The position numbers were made by a program, and so were the translations under genes. This document shows, in pieces, positions 2,499 to 40,133 of a stretch of 42,637 bases of DNA. The stretch spans positions 1-42,637 of the IMG/VR virus record IMGVR_UViG_3300020187_000069. One strand, 5' to 3'. Positions within the stretch are counted from its first letter, which is position 1; each line of letters begins with the position of its first letter. Under the pieces are notes generated by a model, which was not told the DNA's origin, did no database searches, and saw nothing but the letters and a program-made list of their open reading frames with translations. Origin of the DNA: a virus.

Positions 2499-5400
2499 TT
2501 AAGTAGTAGTATTTGCTAAATTACCTAGATGAACACGCAAGGTGGTACCTTCAAATATTTTTAAACAATCATTCTGTAATAACATTCTGTTCGCATTACC
2601 ACCTGTTGTTCCAATTGTCATTTTACCCGCATCGATTTCGCCTGCTTGTATATAAGTAGCGATTACAGTATCAGCATTTAGTACACCTACTCGTAGATTT
2701 GATATACTTGCTCCTGCAGAATCACTGGCCAATTCATTTAAAAGACCTGTAGTACCTATTTCGGGGGTAGCCGTGGAACCATCTGTTATAGAAATGCCCG
2801 AATCAGCAACCGCAGATATCGAAGTTACACCACTTGTGCCTGCTGCATCCGCACGCCATGCAGGAACACCGTTCGCATCTGTTTTCCAAACTTTATTTGC
2901 CTGTCCGGACCCCGAAGCTACAACTCCTGCGGAACTTGCACTATTTGCGGCTACAGAAATAGCAGGAGTAGTTCCTCCACTACTTGCTATAGGTGCAGTT
3001 CCAGATACACTAGTTACTCCTGCAGAGCTGGAAGTACCTGCTCCGATTGCTGTTCTTACTTCTGCCGCTGTTATACCTGTCGCTAGTGTAGGTGTACCAC
3101 TTACATCGGTAATGGCAGGAACTGCGGCGCTAAACTCAGTACCTGTTAAAGTTATTCCTGTACCTGCACTGTAAGTAGTATTCGTATTTGTTGCACTAAT
3201 GTCAATAGTATTACCGCTGCGGCTAACAGCCGCAGATCCGCTTGCTGTAAATTTAACGGTTTCTCCCGCACTAATATTTTCTGTAGCTCCGGTCTCTGCC
3301 TGAATATTAAAGTTAGTAGTGTTTGTATTATTATCTGTACTATTAATTGTAAAGTTTGGATAAGTTCCTGATATTGTAGTTGCACCACTACCTGTTAAAC
3401 TTACTTGTGCTGGAATAGTAGGCTTATTCTCTAAACTATTATAGTTAATATGAGAGGCTATCTGATCTCCAAAGTTTGCAAGAGAGTAATACCGAATATA
3501 CGCATCATCAGAGGCGTATACTCGAGTAATTGCTTGAGTTGTTCGTGCACCAGAAGTGGTATTAATCCAACCCGCTTGAATGTAACCATTGGCATCTGTT
3601 GCAACAACACGATTAGCTACATTTGCTCTTCCAGTATTTAACTGATAACTATCAAGAGTATCTGCGTCTAACCCTGAACCTGACCCGTCGTTACCCGAAT
3701 TCCAAATTTTGCTCCAACTCGACCAGGTACCACTATATCTTGATCGGAAAAACATATTGCTTCCTGTATAAGGAATAGCAAATTGAGTCATATTACCGTC
3801 ATTATCATAGCTCGCGTACTCAAAAGAGAAGGGATGATAGTAATTATTCGTTCCTGGGCCGTTTGTCATAGCGCCCGTTAGAAGTGTATAACCTCCTCCT
3901 GATCGAGCATTTGTTGAATGATTCCAATCTTGAGTGCCACTGGTTGTTTGTGCTCCAAAGCCTCCAGAAAGTTGTCCATTCATATGGTCAGAAGTATCAC
4001 TTCTTACATATTTACTTTGTGTTGAAGAAGAGGTTAGGTATCCTGCTCCGTTACTAAGTTGGTTATTATTAGTAATATAGTTAGCATTGGTTGCTCCAGT
4101 ATATCCCAAAGTAGCCAAAGAAGGCTTGTTCCCTGAGTGATAAATCTCATAAGAGTTTGCTCCCATTGACCAACCGCCCACAGAAAGCTTATTAGTACCT
4201 CCGTCTAGTCCAAAGTAACAAGCAAAGTCACCTCCAACATGGAAAGTCATAAACGCATCATTGCCAGACCCATTATTATAAATTTCTAGGCCTCCCTGTG
4301 AACCGGAAGTAGTCGCAATAGTATCCCAATTATTTGTATTATTTGCTGAAAATGTTATTCTTTGTGTAGATGAATCGGCAGCATCGCTTCTTAGTAGCGA
4401 TGCTCCTTGAATTCCATCCAAAGTATCTGCATTTAAACCACTTGTATTAGTATCTACTGTTTTTAATAAAGTAAGAATTTCAGAAGCACTTTGATCAGCC
4501 GTTGCTCCGTTTTCCACATTTAAAACGGAGCGTATGGTAGCAGGGCTAGCAGGTCTAATATAATTATCTGTTGCAGTATTGTGCTGAACCATTATATGAT
4601 TAATATTGCTAGCGCTTGCTTGAGAATCATATTCTGAACGGAAAAGTCTAGCGTTAATATCTCCGCTACTGTTTCTTTTTACTACTCTACTAGCTGTACT
4701 GGCTTCTACCCCTCCGGTGACTGTAATATAACCCGCTCCGTTAGTAAGTTGGTTATTATTCGTTACAAGATTTGCACCTGTTGTTATGCCATCTAGCTTA
4801 TTCTTGAGAGCAGTAGTAAAGTTCTTTTGTGTAAGACCTCCATCACCTACAGCGATCGCAGAGGTGTAATGAGGCTGGTCAGTATTTGTAGCACCCGCCG
4901 CTATACCAACTAGCTTACTGTTAAGAGCAGTAGTAAAGTTCTTTTGTGTAAGACCTCCATCACCTACAGCGATCGCAGAGGTGTAAAAAGGAGTTGCAGT
5001 ATTAGTAGCACCCGCTGCTACACCGTCTAGCTTATTCTTGAGAGCAGTAGTAAAGTTCTTTTGTGTAAGACCTCCATCACCTACAGCGATCGCAGAGGTG
5101 TAAAAAGGAGTTGCAGTATTAGTAGCACCCGCTGCTACACCGTCTAGCTTATTCTTGAGAGCAGTAGTAAAGTTCTTTTGTGTAAGACCTCCATCACCTA
5201 CAGTATATTCAGTGTTAGGAGTTGTTACAGTATCTGTACTGCCGTCTCCTCTTGTTAAAGTTATTGTGCTACCGCTGATTGTCATTACATTAGTAGCACT
5301 GCCTAATGCTTGTGCTTGGTCTGTTTTAACGTAGGCAGAGGGTAAGGACCCTCCAAAAGTTGCCGCATTTCCTCCATCTGCATTTGTAACATAACCAGCT

Positions 5401-8400
5401 CCGTTTGTAAGCTGATTATTGTTAGTTACATTTGTAGCCCCTGCTGCTACACCGTCTAACTTATTTTTTAAAGTAGTAGTAAAGTTCTTTTGTGTAAGAC
5501 CTCCGTCACCTACAGCGATCGCAGAGGTGTAATGAGGCTGATCAGTATTTGTAGCCCCTGCTGCTATACCGTCTAACTTATTCTTTAAAGTAGTAGTAAA
5601 GTTCTTTTGTGTAAGACCTCCATCACCTACAGCGATCGCAGAGGTGTAATGAGGCTGATCAGTATTTGTAGCACCCGTTGCTATACCGTCTAACTTAGTC
5701 TTTAAAGTAGTAGTAAAGTTCTTTTGTGTAAGACCTCCATCACCTACAGCGATCGCAGAGGTGTAATGAGGCTGGTCAGTATTTGTAGCACCCGCTGCTA
5801 TACCGTCTAACTTAGTCTTTAAAGTAGTAGTAAAGTTCTTTTGTGTAAGACCTCCATCACCTATAGTATAAGTAGTATTAACCCAAGGAACATTCACAAA
5901 CATTTTTTGACTAGAAAGTTCTACAGGGTAATTTCTACCTGTTTCTGTATAACCAATTTTTACTAGACCAAGAGCGGAGCCAGTTGCTACGCCGTATTCA
6001 GTATTTGCAGTAGTTATTGTAAAGTTGGGATACGTACCAGTAATAGTTGCACCGCCACCGCCTGTTAAAGAAACAGTTTGATCAGGGGCAGAGTTACTAA
6101 AAGTAGTACCAGATAAACTTATACCAGATCCTGCACTATAATTAGTATCTGTAGAGCTTATAGTTACTGTATTAGCTGCATCGTCTTTAACAACAGTAAC
6201 ATTTGTACCCGCAGTAATAATACCTGCCGCTAGGTCACGAATCTCTTCATTAGTTCTTTGCGTGTTTGTATCTGTAGAACTTATAGTAACGGTATTGGCC
6301 GCATCATTTTTAACAATACTTACATTTGTACCCGCTGTAATAATACCTGCAGCTAGGTCACGAATTTCTTCATCACTTCTTTGAGTGTTTGTATCTGTAA
6401 ATAATGCTCCAGTAGGTACCGCAGTTTTTACATTATCAAAAGCCCAATTAGAGCTAATAGCCGTTGCGGTAGCTCCGTTTACGGGAGAATCGTGCACACT
6501 TGTAGTACTACTAGTAATTGTGAAGTTTGGATAAGTACCTGTAACTGTTGTACCGCCCGCACCTGTTAAAGCAACTGTTTGATCTGGTGCAGAGTTACTA
6601 AACGTAGTACCAGACAAACTTATGCCAGAACCTGCACTGTATTGAGTATTATTATCGGGTACAGTAACTGTGTCAGTGGTTCCATTTGCTCGGGCTAAAG
6701 TAATTGTATGCCCACTAATTGTCATCGCATCGCTAGCAGTTGATAAAGCTTGGTTAGAATTAGTACTAACTTTATTCCCTAAACTCGTAGTTACAGACGC
6801 TGCAAAACTTTGATCATCATTTACTGCTGCTGCGAGTTCGTTTAAGGTATTTAAGGCATCAGGAGCCCCATCTAATAAAGCGGTAATCTCATCATCAACA
6901 TAAGTTTCTGTAGCAAAACCTGAACTGTTAGCTAAGGAGGCATTACTAATAGTAACACCATTAATTGTTAGATTTGTTCCATCCCACCAAATGTACTTAC
7001 TGGCGTTACCCAGCACCATTTTACCAACACCAAGATCTAAGAAAGCACCTGCTTCCGTACCTGTAGGAGCAGAGGTTGCTTCTGGAAGAGTACCTCCTTT
7101 TAATGTACCTGCAGTAATATCTCCCAAATTAGCTGATATTGCTTCTAGATTAGTGGCTGTGATCTTATCTGCCGTAACACTGCCTGCTGCGATTCTATCT
7201 GCATTAATAGTACCTGCTGTGATATCTCCCGCATTTAAATTACCTCTTAGAGTCATGGTACCTGCAGATTGATCCCAAAAAACATACTTATCTGCAGAAG
7301 CGTCTCCAAGATAGAAGTCTCCATCTGAGTTTAAGTGAGCACCCTTACCTGTGAGAGTAGTGCCTGCAATTTTTGCAACAGTAGTTCTATTTCTTGCCTT
7401 ACCTGTGCCACTTCCTGAACCTGTTGCAGTAAAGATAGTTCCTATACTATTATCGGCTGCTCCGATTGCTGTAAAAGAAGTATTACCTGGCTCTGTAATA
7501 TAGTATTCTGTTCCTGTTACAAAAGAACCTGCTGTTATTTCATTAGAAGGTCCTACTCGAATATCACGAGTTACGATTGCATCAGAATCTAACATATCGG
7601 TATTTAATGTACCAATAGTTGCAACTTCAGCCATCAAGCTTTTGAAAACTGCGTTTGAACCCGTAATATCATCCAAATCTAAAGTGCCTCTGAAAGTCAT
7701 AGTGCCTTCAGAGTGATCATAAAATAGGTATTTATCATCAGCAAAGCTACCTATATACATATCACCGTCTTGCTTTAAATCAATACCTGCACCTGTAAGG
7801 GTAGTACCGCTTACTGTAGGGGCTGTTCCTCCTGCAGGAAATACCTGAACTTCTCGAGCGATAACAGAGTTTGCATTCAATACGTCAGTATCTACTACAC
7901 TAAAAGTTCCTACTGCCGCAACAATTTCTCCGAACCTTCCTCCGGTGGCAGTCTGATCAATGTTGTCTGCAAGAATAGTTTGGTTTGCAATTTCACTAGT
8001 AGTAACACTGCCGTCTACTACCACGTCGCCTCGAATTGCTTGAGTTATTTCTGTCCAAGCACTCCCGCTATACTGCCATATTTTTTGACCTGTAGGAGCA
8101 TTCTGATTGCCTGTAAAGAACCACGCTTCGTCGCCTGCGACAGGTACTGTAGGTCTTTCACCTGTGCCATCTCCCCATCTTGTGTTTGCTAAGGTGGCGG
8201 TGGTGGGTAAAGAGCTTACTGCAATATTCCACTTTCCTTTATGGCGAATAGGGGCTACTGTTGATACACCCGCAGTAGTATTCGGAGAAAAAACAGATCT
8301 AACTACAGTATCTCTAGTAGGTTTGATTACGTGTCTTGCCCAAAAATATTGGGTAGTGGCATCATCGTCAGCCTCAATAGTATGATCGTATCTCTCTGTT

Positions 8401-11400
8401 GTGAGATTTTCGGCTATTAGTTTAGTATTAGCATGGTCTTTATCGTTATGTGTTGTATTAGCATAAATTTCAGTAGTATGAGTATTAACATTAAAGTCTG
8501 CAGCATTTGTCCATTTTAGTACAAAAGTGCCAGGAACTTTACCTGCGCCCTGCAAACCTGTAGGAGGTGCAGGAGTATTTAAATTAACAGGAGTAGACGC
8601 AGTAATCTCTTCTCCAATAGAAGGTTTCTCTAACTTTTTAATTAAGTATGCTTCATTATTATGCTCATCTGCAGTAATATTTACTAGGCAGTCCGCATTT
8701 AATACAATATTAGAAATTCTAAATTCTTTCTCAGTCCAACCAAATCTATCATAGCTAATCTTTACAATTTGTCCTGGAAGTAAAAGCGCCCCTTTTGGCA
8801 TCATCTTAAAGCTAATACTTAAACCGAAACGAGACTCATCCAAATATTGATTAATATTAAAACGAGCATTATAATAGTTTGTTACTCCCGGCATACCATA
8901 GTTGCCTTTCTTAGGTACGCTCTTATCTTGCTTTAAATATGTAGAGTTAAAAAACGAAACAGAACGTGCCTCAAACTTAGTTTGAGGATCTTTAATACTA
9001 GTACTTACACTATTATAAGATTTTTTTAGCCCGCCATCTTTGATGGATATGGCTCCAATAATATCTTCTTCGTTTATAGTCTCTCCTACAACGAAAGTTA
9101 AGGGAGTCTGGCCCTTAATATCTAGTGCATATCTTCCATTAGAAAATCTTAGTACACCATTAAACTGTTTTAACATTAAGTTAATATTTTCAAATACAGG
9201 ATTAGAAGTTGATATAACCTGATTCATTTGATGTCGAGTAACGTTTCTCTGCTGATTAGAGTCCCAGCCTATATATTTCCAATATTTTACACTATCAGAA
9301 TCATATAAATCGTAGCCGCTACTATTAAATGTACCATTTACATAAGATTTAACTAAAGGGTTACCATCTGCTGAAAAATGCTGGGATTCCGTATTACTAA
9401 TATGTAAGGGTAGATTCGTGGTGCTATCGTCAACCTTAACCAAATTAAATGTGGTGTTAGTAGTTTGGAAGGAGCCGCTAGTAGCAGGTAAACTTGTTTG
9501 TTGTCCCCCACTAGAGTTCATTGCCCATAAGTATCCTCTATCATCCCATATAACTTGATGCGCGGCGAAAGATTCCCAGTTGTTCCATCTTCTTCCTAGC
9601 TTACCTATTACATTAGTAAATTTTACTTCTTTATAGCTAGAGCCATCTACTTGTACAGTAGGCGTAGCAGAAGAACTAGATACTACAGTTCCTTGAAATA
9701 GTATTGCACTTCCTGCTCCCGTATATTTATAAACATCGCCCGCTGTGAAACTAGTAGAGGAAGGAACAATTACTGTAATATCAGAGTTTACATCACAGTC
9801 TCGAGCTGCTGACTTAAAAGTAGAAAGATCGATATCATTCTCTAAGCTAAGACCTGCTCCGTATCTGTGGTTCGTTAAGTAGTCTAGTAGCTGCATGGCA
9901 GGGTTAAGACTTACACGTACATCAGGACGGCCTGCGGTAATTACATAGGTATCTCCCGTATCGGGAAAGAATTCTGCATCCCAGTTCTTATCAACAACAG
10001 CTGCATTTGAATTATTGTCATAGTCTACTATTGTTCTTTCTTGAATATAAGCAACATCATTGCTATCTAAACGCGTTAAAGTTATTTTCATACCATTGTA
10101 ATAGTTATCGGGTTTAGCCGTAGTATTTAAAATAATAGCGTCTTTTACAAAAACTTCAGTAAGCTCAGTTGCAACAGTTGAAATATTATCTCCAGAGCCT
10201 ACCTCTTCAAGAGTATTTGTACTACTATCCCACTCATAGTTATATATTGCTGCATTTTGAAGTTCTTCTCTTCCTTCTCCACTTAAAGCTATTGCTCCAA
10301 TTTCTGCCAAGTCCAAAGCAGAAAGCCAGGCTAATACGTTTTGAAAATTAGTATTAGAGTTTACAGTAATATCTACACCATTAGTTGTGTTATTACTGGT
10401 TGTACTTATTGTTGTTTTGGAAGGAGTACTTACTGTGCCCGATATACTATCTTCGGCGTCTTCTGGGGCAACATACCATTTTTTAGTAGAGTCAGATACT
10501 TTTTCCATATAGTGGGAAACAGTTATATCATATCCCCAATCTGTTTGAAATCTTGTTTGGTTAATACCGTCAATATCTAAGAAAGTCCATTTATCAGTGA
10601 TAATTTGAACTCCAGAAGTTGCTTCGGTAGTGCCAGTTGCCGGATGTTTTACACTACTTCCCGAGGAAGTTTTAAGGTATATTTGGTCTCCTAAGTTAAA
10701 ATCAGAAGAAGCGGCAGAAGCTTGGTTAGTAGTATTATAGCTTCTATCATAATTATGGCAATTTAATCCTTTGCCTCTTACTACAAAATCTATTTCAGGA
10801 ATACTTGTTTCGCCCGGTGCAATTGTATACTGACTAACTACATAGGCAGTATCTAGTAATCTGTGGTTATTACTCCAGTATTGGGATCTTCTAGAGGCAG
10901 GAAAATAGTCGTTCTGTATTTTAAAGCCATTAGCCGCAGCTTTATTTACTAGAGTATTATTTGCGGTTTGGTCAGGTTTACCTGCATGAAACTGAAAAGT
11001 TCCGGTGATAGGGCTGTCTATATTATGACTTTTTTGGTGCAAAATGCCTGTGGCTTGATCGGCTCCAGTTGTTCCTGTATTAAAATTTTGAACATTGTTT
11101 CTTCGAGATTGCACACCGCCTCTACCAAAATCCCATATTCCGTTTTGGCTAAAAGGTGCCCACATATCTTGAATATCTCCGGGAAAACTAGAGAATTGAC
11201 TACTGTTTGCATCATAACCATTTAAGGCATTGCCTCTGTCCATGCGACCTTTACAGGTTAAGTCCGCTTCAGAGTTATTAGAGCGCAAGGCAAGATCAGC
11301 AGCATCTACACAGATACTACTATTACCGTCTACATATAGATCTAAAAGACCTCCGACAGGCCCTTCCGCTATAGCATAAGCAACAAATATTTTAGAAGCA

Positions 11401-12596
11401 TCAGAGTTATCCGTATCTACAAAAATAGGGATAGCATCGACTTTATTAACTCCATATACTACAGGCAAATATTTAGGAGAGAGATTAAAGTTTAAATCAG
11501 TACGTCTCTCTACTACATTCTCTACTTCTCTTAGTCTTTTACCTCCTGGCCAACCACCGTTTATGTCCACTTGCTTATACGATATTTCAATATCGTTATA
11601 AAGTGCCATTACATTAATAGCTTGGTTAGCGTGCATAAAACCAAAGTCATGAGCGTATTCAGGACGTAGAACAGCGTCTTTATCGGGTATACCTCTACCG
11701 TCCAAAGCTCTATGACTCTCGTCTACCGTAAGTCTGCCAGAAACTCTAGAAAAATCTCCCCAGTGACTAGAAATAGTCCACATTATGGAGGAACCTTTAC
11801 CTGGATCTTCTTTTAATGTACCGTTTGTAATAATTCCTTTAAATATAAGATAAGGATCGCCAATAATTACATTTGTATCAATATCTAAGTGTGCTTTATA
11901 TATGAATACTTCTCTATTCATATAAGTACTATATGCATCATCTGTTTTATAAGTTGTTAGTGCCTTTAATTCTTCAGAAGATAAAGATACTGTGTAGTTA
12001 TAATTTTGAAAAGCTAATGCATACGAAGGTAAAGATTCTGTAAAGTCGATAGACCTTCCTTCATTTTTGAAAGTATCTATGACTACATAAATGCCTTGAG
12101 CATTACGAGCAACTGTAGCATCTGCTTGATTAGCCGCAATTGCAGTAGCATCTCCGACGATGTAAATCTTATCACCCTCTTGGAACCCCTCAGCTACAAA
12201 ATCAAAACCTACTGGCCCTGTTATCGTATTACTCTGAAACTGCATTTGAGTTACGGATGCAGTAGCACCGAGAGAAGCAGTATCTAGAGTTATATTTGTA
12301 GAGCTTGCTTTTGCTTCAGTACTTTCTGTGACAGAACCTATTTTTTGTAATTTATTTGCATTATACTTTTGAGTACCGTTAGCAGTACCTGTAGCATCTT
12401 TACTGCCGTCGTCCCAGACAATATCAAAAGCTCCGTCAGTAATATAAGTATAGTTTGCAGCCTTTTTAGCAGTGCTTCCATCTTGAACAGAGGTCTCTAC
12501 GGTAGGTTTTTCAAACTTTACAAGATGAGCATAATTAAATGAATCATTATTAAGCAAAGAAGTTCTTAAAGTAGAATTAAGATTACGAATTGTCAT
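2499..12596 (-). CDS. Giant tail-tip/central fibre protein (gpJ-like)
   Basis: A 3365-residue protein occupying almost a quarter of the window. Residues 1 to about 330 resemble a tail-hub N-terminal domain. Residues 330-1340 look like the gpJ-type tail-tip region. A fibronectin type III-like domain (PAPPTGLQG ... TTQYFWARHV) lies near 1345-1445. Around 1530-1800 come repeated modules of the kind DG.MYIG...DKY.F.D...GTMT.RG, as in the central fibre part of gpJ-like proteins. Residues 2240-2610 hold eight copies of a 39-residue repeat. The C-terminal third has NNNQLTNGAGY motifs typical of fibre shafts and ends with NADTVIATYIQAGEIDAGK. It follows the distal tail gene with a one-base overlap. 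Likely host recognition and tail-tip assembly; the receptor cannot be told. Confidence 0.88.
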   Translation of the reverse strand: MTIRNLNSTLRTSLLNNDSFNYAHLVKFEKPTVETSVQDGSTAKKAANYTYITDGAFDIVWDDGSKDATGTANGTQKYNANKLQKIGSVTESTEAKASSTNITLDTASLGATASVTQMQFQSNTITGPVGFDFVAEGFQEGDKIYIVGDATAIAANQADATVARNAQGIYVVIDTFKNEGRSIDFTESLPSYALAFQNYNYTVSLSSEELKALTTYKTDDAYSTYMNREVFIYKAHLDIDTNVIIGDPYLIFKGIITNGTLKEDPGKGSSIMWTISSHWGDFSRVSGRLTVDESHRALDGRGIPDKDAVLRPEYAHDFGFMHANQAINVMALYNDIEISYKQVDINGGWPGGKRLREVENVVERRTDLNFNLSPKYLPVVYGVNKVDAIPIFVDTDNSDASKIFVAYAIAEGPVGGLLDLYVDGNSSICVDAADLALRSNNSEADLTCKGRMDRGNALNGYDANSSQFSSFPGDIQDMWAPFSQNGIWDFGRGGVQSRRNNVQNFNTGTTGADQATGILHQKSHNIDSPITGTFQFHAGKPDQTANNTLVNKAAANGFKIQNDYFPASRRSQYWSNNHRLLDTAYVVSQYTIAPGETSIPEIDFVVRGKGLNCHNYDRSYNTTNQASAASSDFNLGDQIYLKTSSGSSVKHPATGTTEATSGVQIITDKWTFLDIDGINQTRFQTDWGYDITVSHYMEKVSDSTKKWYVAPEDAEDSISGTVSTPSKTTISTTSNNTTNGVDITVNSNTNFQNVLAWLSALDLAEIGAIALSGEGREELQNAAIYNYEWDSSTNTLEEVGSGDNISTVATELTEVFVKDAIILNTTAKPDNYYNGMKITLTRLDSNDVAYIQERTIVDYDNNSNAAVVDKNWDAEFFPDTGDTYVITAGRPDVRVSLNPAMQLLDYLTNHRYGAGLSLENDIDLSTFKSAARDCDVNSDITVIVPSSTSFTAGDVYKYTGAGSAILFQGTVVSSSSATPTVQVDGSSYKEVKFTNVIGKLGRRWNNWESFAAHQVIWDDRGYLWAMNSSGGQQTSLPATSGSFQTTNTTFNLVKVDDSTTNLPLHISNTESQHFSADGNPLVKSYVNGTFNSSGYDLYDSDSVKYWKYIGWDSNQQRNVTRHQMNQVISTSNPVFENINLMLKQFNGVLRFSNGRYALDIKGQTPLTFVVGETINEEDIIGAISIKDGGLKKSYNSVSTSIKDPQTKFEARSVSFFNSTYLKQDKSVPKKGNYGMPGVTNYYNARFNINQYLDESRFGLSISFKMMPKGALLLPGQIVKISYDRFGWTEKEFRISNIVLNADCLVNITADEHNNEAYLIKKLEKPSIGEEITASTPVNLNTPAPPTGLQGAGKVPGTFVLKWTNAADFNVNTHTTEIYANTTHNDKDHANTKLIAENLTTERYDHTIEADDDATTQYFWARHVIKPTRDTVVRSVFSPNTTAGVSTVAPIRHKGKWNIAVSSLPTTATLANTRWGDGTGERPTVPVAGDEAWFFTGNQNAPTGQKIWQYSGSAWTEITQAIRGDVVVDGSVTTSEIANQTILADNIDQTATGGRFGEIVAAVGTFSVVDTDVLNANSVIAREVQVFPAGGTAPTVSGTTLTGAGIDLKQDGDMYIGSFADDKYLFYDHSEGTMTFRGTLDLDDITGSNAVFKSLMAEVATIGTLNTDMLDSDAIVTRDIRVGPSNEITAGSFVTGTEYYITEPGNTSFTAIGAADNSIGTIFTATGSGSGTGKARNRTTVAKIAGTTLTGKGAHLNSDGDFYLGDASADKYVFWDQSAGTMTLRGNLNAGDITAGTINADRIAAGSVTADKITATNLEAISANLGDITAGTLKGGTLPEATSAPTGTEAGAFLDLGVGKMVLGNASKYIWWDGTNLTINGVTISNASLANSSGFATETYVDDEITALLDGAPDALNTLNELAAAVNDDQSFAASVTTSLGNKVSTNSNQALSTASDAMTISGHTITLARANGTTDTVTVPDNNTQYSAGSGISLSGTTFSNSAPDQTVALTGAGGTTVTGTYPNFTITSSTTSVHDSPVNGATATAISSNWAFDNVKTAVPTGALFTDTNTQRSDEEIRDLAAGIITAGTNVSIVKNDAANTVTISSTDTNTQRTNEEIRDLAAGIITAGTNVTVVKDDAANTVTISSTDTNYSAGSGISLSGTTFSNSAPDQTVSLTGGGGATITGTYPNFTITTANTEYGVATGSALGLVKIGYTETGRNYPVELSSQKMFVNVPWVNTTYTIGDGGLTQKNFTTTLKTKLDGIAAGATNTDQPHYTSAIAVGDGGLTQKNFTTTLKTKLDGIATGATNTDQPHYTSAIAVGDGGLTQKNFTTTLKNKLDGIAAGATNTDQPHYTSAIAVGDGGLTQKNFTTTLKNKLDGVAAGATNVTNNNQLTNGAGYVTNADGGNAATFGGSLPSAYVKTDQAQALGSATNVMTISGSTITLTRGDGSTDTVTTPNTEYTVGDGGLTQKNFTTALKNKLDGVAAGATNTATPFYTSAIAVGDGGLTQKNFTTALKNKLDGVAAGATNTATPFYTSAIAVGDGGLTQKNFTTALNSKLVGIAAGATNTDQPHYTSAIAVGDGGLTQKNFTTALKNKLDGITTGANLVTNNNQLTNGAGYITVTGGVEASTASRVVKRNSSGDINARLFRSEYDSQASASNINHIMVQHNTATDNYIRPASPATIRSVLNVENGATADQSASEILTLLKTVDTNTSGLNADTLDGIQGASLLRSDAADSSTQRITFSANNTNNWDTIATTSGSQGGLEIYNNGSGNDAFMTFHVGGDFACYFGLDGGTNKLSVGGWSMGANSYEIYHSGNKPSLATLGYTGATNANYITNNNQLSNGAGYLTSSSTQSKYVRSDTSDHMNGQLSGGFGAQTTSGTQDWNHSTNARSGGGYTLLTGAMTNGPGTNNYYHPFSFEYASYDNDGNMTQFAIPYTGSNMFFRSRYSGTWSSWSKIWNSGNDGSGSGLDADTLDSYQLNTGRANVANRVVATDANGYIQAGWINTTSGARTTQAITRVYASDDAYIRYYSLANFGDQIASHINYNSLENKPTIPAQVSLTGSGATTISGTYPNFTINSTDNNTNTTNFNIQAETGATENISAGETVKFTASGSAAVSRSGNTIDISATNTNTTYSAGTGITLTGTEFSAAVPAITDVSGTPTLATGITAAEVRTAIGAGTSSSAGVTSVSGTAPIASSGGTTPAISVAANSASSAGVVASGSGQANKVWKTDANGVPAWRADAAGTSGVTSISAVADSGISITDGSTATPEIGTTGLLNELASDSAGASISNLRVGVLNADTVIATYIQAGEIDAGKMTIGTTGGNANRMLLQNDCLKIFEGTTLRVHLGNLANTTT
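4770..5875 (-). repeat. Eight 117-bp (39-residue) coding repeats in the tail-tip protein
   Basis: Two blocks of four copies each, separated by about 195 bp of non-repeat sequence. Within a block the period is exactly 117 bp, seen from the recurring AAAGTTCTTTTGTGTAAGAC at about 4817, 4934, 5051, 5168 and again at 5480, 5597, 5714, 5831. Each unit encodes VGDGGLTQKNFTT.L..KLD followed by G...GAT. Near-identity at the nucleotide level suggests recent duplication or gene conversion. Unit number could vary between related phages by recombination. Confidence 0.95.
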
Positions 12597-38606: not shown

Positions 38607-38625
38607 GAACTTTTTTTCGTAGGTA

Positions 38626-39570
38626 TCATGAAAAGGTATGTATCGCCAGAATAATGCCCATAGAGGCTGCAACACCAATCATAAGTTTGCCAAAGTCACC
38701 TGCGATGATAGGAAATACTTGTTTAAAGTTTTTCCTTCCACCACTGAAGGTTGCAATAGCAAGTTCTCTACCGCTCAAGAGTCCTATGAACACCCAAGTT
38801 GTTGACATTGGTATATTATTATACTGTTTAAAGTACCATAATATGATGAGATAGACAAAATCAATAAGTGTAGCAGACTTTACATAGTTCGTATCCGTCT
38901 TACTAATTACAACTTGCTGTATCTTACCTCCCTGCTCTTTAAACATAACACCCATTCCAGCAATAAACAGTACACTAATCGCTGCTAGTGCTTCCCAAGA
39001 GACTTCTCGAGGTAAAAACACTGCCATATTTGCCATGTCATGAGATAACCAAGTCCACCAGAGCCAGCCTGTAACCATCCACTGAGCAACTCTCCACTTT
39101 TGTTCTGATCCGCCAAGAGTTACGTTCTGCATCCACTTTGAAATTATGGCCCACAAGGCATAAGCACTGACAGCTGCTACTCCATAGCCTGCGAAAGACT
39201 TAACTAACATTTTTTCTAGTACAAATGTAGAGGCGAAGGCACTCAGTACGAGAAAAGATGTGCTTACAGGTACTCCAAAGCGTGTGAGTAGAAGTAAAAC
39301 ACCAGGAGCGAGTGCATGATACCACTGAGGTTCTATATACGGTATTCTATCGAGTCTACCATATGATATATCTCCTCCGTTCATCGACCAGCCATACCAA
39401 AGTGCAAAGAGTAATACACTTGAAGCTCCCATCCATAAGGTAGTCCAGTTAAATTTTTGCTTATTTGACTGAATCCAAGTACCTAAAGTCTGTATACTAT
39501 CGTTTGCGATAACAGTGTAACTTGCAAAACCAAAGCCTATGCAAGTCCACAGTAGAGTCATAAGATCCAT
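38626..39570 (-). CDS. PiT-family (Pho4-like) phosphate permease homologue
   Basis: A 314-residue, very hydrophobic protein with about nine membrane helices. It shows the internal two-fold pattern of PiT transporters: ND-type signatures at residues 21-30 (IANDSIQTLG) and 175-183 (SHDMANMAV), and STT/STS motifs at about 101 (VPVSTSFLVLS) and 256 (IPMSTTWVFIG). PiT proteins move inorganic phosphate inward with cations. The canonical GANDVAN motif is diverged (His replaces Asn in the second copy), so activity is likely but unproved. It lies one base after the exported-protein gene and below a Pho-box promoter. Confidence 0.75.
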   Translation of the reverse strand: MDLMTLLWTCIGFGFASYTVIANDSIQTLGTWIQSNKQKFNWTTLWMGASSVLLFALWYGWSMNGGDISYGRLDRIPYIEPQWYHALAPGVLLLLTRFGVPVSTSFLVLSAFASTFVLEKMLVKSFAGYGVAAVSAYALWAIISKWMQNVTLGGSEQKWRVAQWMVTGWLWWTWLSHDMANMAVFLPREVSWEALAAISVLFIAGMGVMFKEQGGKIQQVVISKTDTNYVKSATLIDFVYLIILWYFKQYNNIPMSTTWVFIGLLSGRELAIATFSGGRKNFKQVFPIIAGDFGKLMIGVAASMGIILAIHTFS

Positions 39571-39571
39571 A

Positions 39572-39862
39572 TTAATCTCCGAAGGTGTATCGGATTTCAG
39601 TTTCTAATCCGGTCTTTTTAAAATCGTTAGTTGATTCAACTTTGCCTTTAATAGTGAAGTTGTCTTTTTTAAACTTGTATCCAATTTCCGCAGAGTCCTT
39701 TCCTACCTCTGCATAGACTCTTTTAGCCTTATATCCAACTCGAACATAATTATCTTTACTTTCCTGAATTCGCAGGTCATACTTATTCTTGTATTCGATG
39801 TACGGGGCGGCGTGGGCGGTTGACGTGCAGACAAACATAATTATAAAAAATTTTTTTAACAT
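39572..39862 (-). CDS. Small exported beta-rich protein
   Basis: A 96-residue protein with a Sec signal peptide (MLKKFFIIMFVCTSTAHA). The mature 78 residues alternate polar and hydrophobic positions: YIEYKNKYDLRIQES, YVRVGYKAKRVYAEVG, AEIGYKFKKDNFTIKG, and ETEIRYTFGD at the end. This resembles beta-hairpins of outer-membrane barrels, but it is much smaller than a porin. GGAG ribosome binding site. Co-transcribed with the permease. An envelope accessory role in phosphate uptake is only an inference. Confidence 0.75.
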   Translation of the reverse strand: MLKKFFIIMFVCTSTAHAAPYIEYKNKYDLRIQESKDNYVRVGYKAKRVYAEVGKDSAEIGYKFKKDNFTIKGKVESTNDFKKTGLETEIRYTFGD

Positions 39863-39882
39863 GGTTTTTCTCCAAGGACTTT

Positions 39883-39897
39883 GTGAAAGTGTTTCAC
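39883..39897. promoter_or_regulatory. Perfect palindrome GTGAAAGTGTTTCAC (putative operator)
   Basis: A 15-base inverted repeat with a 3-base centre, lying just downstream of the extended -10 at 39905-39913, at about +1 to +15 of that promoter. Position fits a repressor site. Confidence 0.6.
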
Positions 39898-39904
39898 GAG
39901 TGTT

Positions 39905-39913
39905 ATTATAGCA
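39905..39913 (-). promoter_or_regulatory. Extended -10 promoter (TGCTATAAT)
   Basis: Minus-strand TGCTATAAT, a perfect extended -10; no -35 match 17 bp upstream. It could give basal transcription of the exported protein and permease. Confidence 0.65.
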
Positions 39914-39957
39914 TACTTTTATTAAGATTTTATTAAGATTTCATTAAATTTTTATGT

Positions 39958-39991
39958 ATTATATCATAGTTTTATGACAGTTTTGTGACAG
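39958..39991 (-). promoter_or_regulatory. PhoB-type promoter (Pho box plus TATAAT)
   Basis: On the minus strand two 11-base direct repeats, CTGTCACAAAA and CTGTCATAAAA (39981-39991, 39970-39980), followed by 6 bases and TATAAT (39958-39963). The repeats match the known Pho-box consensus (CTGTCAT plus four A/T-rich bases, twice). The 6-base gap to the -10 is the same as in E. coli phoA (recalled). There is no separate -35, as expected for a PhoB-activated promoter. Confidence 0.88.
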
Positions 39992-40005
39992 TTTTTTTGT
40001 AACAC

Positions 40006-40133
40006 CCTTTTCATTTATGAGAATTTCCCAAAGTTGTACGTGTGGGGGAGACCGATCGGTCGCCTTATAACCAGGTCGTCTAACCGCCCACCCCCTTATG
40101 CTTTTTTATTCTAAAAAGAATTTGAATTAGGTG
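40006..40133. other. Divergent intergenic region with a 12-bp palindrome
   Basis: No gene is seen between the Pho promoter and the rightward promoter. It holds the perfect palindrome GACCGATCGGTC (40050-40061) and a GGGGG/CCCCC pair with a T-rich end that could weakly terminate rightward transcription. The palindrome may be a regulator site. Confidence 0.5.

Follow-up and report, generated by a model that had tools for sequence, protein, structure and literature searches.

A predicted phosphate-uptake operon with a divergent PiT-fold permease behind a Pho-box promoter in a phage genome

The DNA analyzed here, referred to as the window, is a stretch of 42,637 nucleotides, namely the IMG/VR virus record IMGVR_UViG_3300020187_000069. 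It carries a two-gene operon encoding a small exported protein and a PiT-like permease, preceded by two CTGTCA-type repeats and, six bases further, a TATAAT hexamer. We estimate at roughly 70% the probability that this locus is a phage phosphate-uptake operon switched on by the PhoR-PhoB system of the host. In a phosphate-starved host, PhoB~P would bind the 11-bp repeats, stand in for the -35 element, and bring the host sigma-70 polymerase to the TATAAT located six bases on (class II activation). The first product would be a small exported beta-sheet protein, probably of the outer membrane, and the second a short inner-membrane permease of the PiT fold, importing inorganic phosphate that would feed phage DNA synthesis. 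An original prediction, made from the letters of the window, had described the repeats with their spacing to TATAAT and the operon of an exported protein and a permease homologue; both are found in the window (Table 1).

The small ORF ends one base ahead of the ATG of the PiT-like gene. The Shine-Dalgarno sequence of the latter is contained in the terminal part of the small gene, so translation of the two genes is likely coupled. The PiT-like gene is located on the genome of a marine phage, as the record also encodes an HK97-type portal, a prohead protease, and a T5-like large terminase (~51% identity to Vibrio T5-like phages). The putative siphophage assignment rests on this terminase. No tRNA genes, which might have given a clue to the host, were found in the window. 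The minus strand at 2499-12596 encodes a 3365-aa protein with many near-identical repeats (AVGDGGLTQKNFTTTLKTKLDGIAAGATN), which is probably the tail tip and fibre.

Table 1. Coordinates of the operon features in the window.
Feature	Position	Strand	Basis and remarks
PiT-like permease gene	38626..39570	-	ORF, 314 aa; fold model, motifs; optional cassette, absent from L291 and L292
Shine-Dalgarno GGAGAT, PiT-like gene	39575..39580	-	Sequence; within 3' end of small gene
Small exported beta-rich protein gene	39572..39862	-	ORF, 96 aa; first gene of operon
Shine-Dalgarno GGAG, small gene	39870..39873	-	Sequence
P2 -10 element TATAAT	39905-39910	-	Sequence
P2 array TTTAATGAAAT CTTAATAAAAT CTTAATAAAAG + 5 bases + TATAAT	39905..39948	-	Sequence
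P1 -10 element TATAAT, extended TGATATAAT	39958..39963	-	Sequence; 6 bases after box
Pho box, two 11-bp units CTGTCACAAAA + CTGTCATAAAA (joined: CTGTCACAAAACTGTCATAAAA)	39970..39991	-	Matrix score

We built a PhoB 2x11 matrix from the E. coli consensus, which may differ from the preference of the phage host; on it, the Pho box of promoter P1 reaches 25.1. On the same matrix the E. coli sites of pstS, phoB, phoE, and phoA score 22.9, 20.7, 18.0, and 15.4, respectively. When the whole window is shuffled 60 times under a Markov model and scored on both strands, no site exceeds 17.3; in the real sequence the second-ranking independent site reaches 13.2. The box is thus not a chance occurrence. As in PhoB promoters, two direct 11-bp CTGTCAT-like repeats are present in the window, and the box replaces the -35 element with the -10 at a fixed distance, an arrangement common to the window, six further distinct viral loci, and E. 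coli phoA, phoB, and phoE. The offset of 6 is also that of E. coli phoA (-10 TATAGT) and phoB (-10 CATAAT), and in phoE the best -10-like hexamer (TAAAAA) is located at offset 6. The claim of a PhoB-activated promoter layout is borne out by this shared offset and by its recurrence in viral relatives. A weak Pho-box-like site (score 13.2) is observed at 39997-40018 on the plus strand, opposite to the operon and directed toward the rightward genes from 40131 onward.

A second array (P2), missed in the original prediction, consists of three 11-bp repeats that match the CTTA-N7-CTTA pattern, the cyanobacterial Pho-box consensus (PMC3037559). Its homologue is kept in loci L291 and L292, as the sole array there. 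P1 and P2 appear to form a stacked promoter pair driving the small gene. We regard it as very improbable that P1 works independently of phosphate, either as a constitutive host sigma-70 promoter through its extended -10 or under another regulator of the OmpR family. The extended -10 itself, the second array with its own TATAAT downstream, and the retention of only a degenerate array in L291 and L292 would all fit such a promoter, but PhoB promoters are matched exactly in the repeat period of 11 bp, in the core CTGTCA, and in the constant spacing of 6 bp to the -10, and their geometry requires no -35 hexamer.

Conservation of the promoter was surveyed in the regions preceding a non-redundant set of 94 viral PiT-like genes and at 47 cellular loci (the best 80 per scan). 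Upstream of the viral genes, ten pairs of TGT[AC]A are found at 11-bp spacing, against 0-3 at other spacings, and no same-strand pair is found upstream of the 47 cellular homologues. A matrix score of at least 16 is reached at 16 of the 94 viral loci (mean of 0.1 in shuffles), and matrix hits have a density of 0.247 per kb upstream of the viral PiT-like genes, compared with 0.0018 per kb in the remainder of these loci. An exact TATAAT follows ten of 29 distinct boxes, in seven cases at offset 6; the box, the six bases, and TATAAT are combined in seven distinct loci, i.e. the window and six further viral loci. Against the uptake-operon reading, a box at threshold 12 is absent from 67 of the 94 viral relatives and from the cellular homologues; beyond the group of the window, the majority of relatives lack a clear box. 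Inheritance of the Pho boxes from cells along with the PiT-like gene is unsupported (0/47 cellular loci). Four other contigs (L111, L040, L312, and L068) have [CT]TAAATA at the place of the -10, exactly 6 bp past the Pho box and upstream of the PiT-like or the small gene. These elements resemble T4-type late promoters, and the arrangement may couple phosphate control to late phage transcription.

The PiT-like protein of the window gives zero matches in Pfam, NCBIfam, and PHROGs, including none to Pfam PHO4 (PF01384) at the curated cut-off, and phmmer against the PDB returned nothing useful. Its relatives come closer to PHO4: at a cut-off of 33.7 bits, L211 (~55% identical to the window protein) scores 35.3, L187 32.4, and L170 23.1. 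An AlphaFold2 model computed from 62 aligned relatives, viral and cellular, has a pLDDT of 86.2 and a pTM of 0.84 (with 13 close relatives as input the pLDDT is 36), and shows the PiT fold of two inverted repeats. In a Foldseek search of solved structures, the sole significant match of the model is TmPiT (6l85; E 2e-4, probability 1.00), the sodium-dependent phosphate transporter of Thermotoga maritima. The superposition on TmPiT gives a VIA Z of 20.3 and an rmsd of 3.7 over 289 of the 314 residues, while the next-best structure is an unrelated transporter with a Z of 7.0. A search of BFVD for a viral structure resembling the model found none at E 0.001.

Each half of the protein contains one (N/H)D and one PxSTT/S motif (N23-D24, P101VSTS, H177-D178, P254MSTT). 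The order ND-PVSTS-HD-PMSTT parallels the canonical ND-PVSTT-ND-PVSTT, and HD stands in place of the second ND motif throughout the 62 aligned sequences. Direct profile comparison argues against the uptake-operon reading, as the window protein is unseen by Pfam/HMMER and its profile-profile alignment to canonical PiTs is weak. In hhalign against 20 canonical PiTs, the local alignment of the family is confined to the PVSTS core and the global one pairs the N half of the family with the canonical C half; hmmsearch of the PDB with the family alignments A1 and A2 gave no matches. Since hhalign is weak and misregistered, the sequence link to PiT rests on the Pfam matches of the relatives together with the fold. 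Based on the TmPiT fold match, the motif order, and the relatives near or above the PHO4 cut-off, the window protein is best described as a predicted divergent PiT-fold transporter with HD for the second ND. Lacking a PHO4 match, it is classed among divergent relatives with the PiT fold and not as a Pfam-defined member. The earlier designation as a PiT-type permease therefore stands for the fold but not for a Pfam match of the protein itself, and in the profile search proposed along with it the cut-off is passed by the relative L211.

The PiT-like family is found in at least 581 stretches of uncultured viruses in IMG/VR and in at least 582 cellular stretches (SAR11, other Alphaproteobacteria, Flavobacteriales, and one Legionellales MAG), with none among the INPHARED phages at E 1. 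A tree built on 85 rows separates viral from cellular sequences with 3 label changes, compared with 26 in shuffles, and places the window protein within a large viral clade. Given this strong clustering of the viral sequences, recent capture of the gene from a host is unlikely. T4-type gp23 is encoded on 3 of 20 tested virus records with the PiT-like gene, and three others of the 20 have a terminase 73-79% identical to that of the window; the gene is therefore not confined to a single type of phage. The PiT-like gene of one MAG contig, L171 (Rhodobacteraceae Water_Bin34), groups inside a viral clade; the contig is probably of phage origin and binned with the MAG.

The cellular homologues adjoin genes of phosphate and arsenate metabolism. 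In Flavobacteriales (L187, L195, L199, L210, and L227) the PiT-like gene is found beside phoB-phoR and an ACR3-like exporter of the SBF family; in L187 (4176-8104) the order is phoB-phoR-PiT-like-SBF/ACR3 exporter, similar in the other four, and the PiT-like protein of L187 is extended to 362 aa. In the Alphaproteobacteria L170 and L172, ppk1 adjoins the PiT-like gene, and in L170 (965-4565) and the like region of L172, both MAGs, genes for a small exported protein, the PiT-like protein, and polyphosphate kinase lie in series. The neighbours in SAR11 (L208) are an LMWPc (ArsC-like) protein and MIP, and in L203 and L185 a phosphate-selective porin O/P. The domains of these neighbours were confirmed with Pfam for L187, L170, L208, L203, and L185, and were assigned from gene layout for the others. 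Arsenate enters cells via phosphate transporters. The proximity of phosphate and arsenate genes points to phosphate as the substrate of the PiT-like protein.

Some hosts (e.g. L173) additionally encode a canonical PiT with its DUF47 partner, which leaves room for another substrate. We consider it decidedly unlikely that the protein transports a different oxyanion instead of phosphate (sulfate, as CysP of Bacillus, phosphite, or arsenate). Its distance from canonical PiTs and the H in place of N in the second ND motif, along with the DUF47-PiT pair, are in line with such a change, but the viral Pho-box promoters and the cellular neighbours phoBR, ppk1, phosphate porin, and arsenic detoxification genes favor phosphate, and sulfate is plentiful in sea water.

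The small protein has a type-I signal-peptide-like start and ends in ETEIRYTF. Its family is present in 70 viral loci and shows a marked alternation of polar and apolar residues (beta-moment z of 24.9 versus shuffles), with an aromatic residue within the last three positions in 46 of 47 members. This alternation and the C-terminal aromatics suggest an outer-membrane beta protein. The cellular 95-aa exported protein ahead of PiT in L170 and L172 was considered as a homologue, which is unsupported (beta-moment z of 1.0). In another clade (L015, L020, L025, and L033) an exported beta-rich protein of 181-184 aa takes the place of the small gene.

The two genes of the operon differ in constancy. 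The same locus is present in L291 and L292 (97% and 93% identical, respectively), but the alignment skips the PiT-like gene; the missing stretches correspond to 38644-39568 and 38625-39580 of the window, in that order. In L293, L294, L295, L298, and L314, the small gene follows a strong promoter of box, six bases, and TATAAT with no PiT behind it. On these comparisons, the constant Pho-box gene is the small exported protein, with the PiT-like gene as an optional cassette of the unit. Loss of the PiT-like gene from the closest relatives while the small gene remains speaks against the uptake-operon reading. Of the uptake operon as predicted, the PiT fold, the two-gene layout, and the promoter geometry hold, but the constant gene is not the PiT-like one.

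The main rival explanation, which we judge unlikely, takes the small protein as the key Pho-controlled product, masking or altering a PhoB-regulated outer-membrane receptor (superinfection exclusion), with the PiT-like gene as a later hitch-hiker. The lipoprotein Llp of T5 masks the receptor FhuA, and the terminase of the window is T5-like; the small gene adjoins apparent tail or receptor genes, and it has the strong promoters without PiT in the five loci named above. On the other hand, several phage types (a T4-like contig included) keep the small gene in tight association with the PiT-like gene, phosphate porins accompany the PiT-like genes of cells, which fits uptake, and no lipobox was seen in the small-protein sequence. 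Within the uptake-operon reading, a more specific proposal, which we put forward tentatively and would not yet favor, is that several types of marine phage share a two-membrane module, in which the small outer-membrane beta protein would be the conserved and primary PhoB-controlled product, working as a minimal phosphate channel, and a virus-specific PiT-fold permease would follow as an exchangeable cassette.

The similarity of the window protein to PiT/PHO4 (PF01384, SLC20; TmPiT) includes the entire fold, the two inverted halves, and the (N/H)D and PxSTT/S motifs in each, whereas it is shorter, below Pfam detection, has HD in the second half, and its gene has no adjacent DUF47/PhoU_div partner. 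Cyanophage pstS and other phage genes are under host PhoBR control (P-SSM2, S-PM2d; PMC10976474). As with cyanophage pstS/phoA, a phage phosphate-acquisition gene is predicted here to be read via host PhoB. In contrast to those genes, the window encodes a secondary permease and not an ABC binding protein, the box is of the Proteobacteria-type CTGTCA, and the gene is not a cyanophage one. The earlier remark that such a permease is little described holds with some exceptions. Algal viruses carry pho4, also a marine virus-borne transporter of the PHO4 superfamily, and one Pacific pho4 clone is phage-derived (Monier et al. 2012, PMC3429862). The pho4 genes of that study are mostly from eukaryotic viruses, and its phage clone comes without promoter, operon, or family analysis. 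In 2024, pit was called as an auxiliary gene in soil phages by annotation (PMC10987575), and is not listed in the survey of public viral genomes in that paper. The soil-phage pit likewise is a phage-borne auxiliary gene, but annotation-based, from soil, and without Pho-box analysis. The novel elements are a PiT-fold lineage largely specific to viruses, how abundant it is, its Pho-box promoters with their exact geometry, and its place as a cassette beside the small exported protein.

The influence of phages of heterotrophic marine bacteria on phosphate has been ascribed mainly to pstS, phoA, and phoH, genes known from cyanophages. Standard profiles miss the PiT-fold lineage, found in both T4-like phages and phages with a T5-like terminase and often located behind sites of exact PhoB-promoter geometry. 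If the proposed reading is true, the phage would exploit the starvation sensor of the host to obtain phosphate for replication. Where the sea is poor in phosphate, infected cells would then import it for the virus, with the switch thrown by the host itself.
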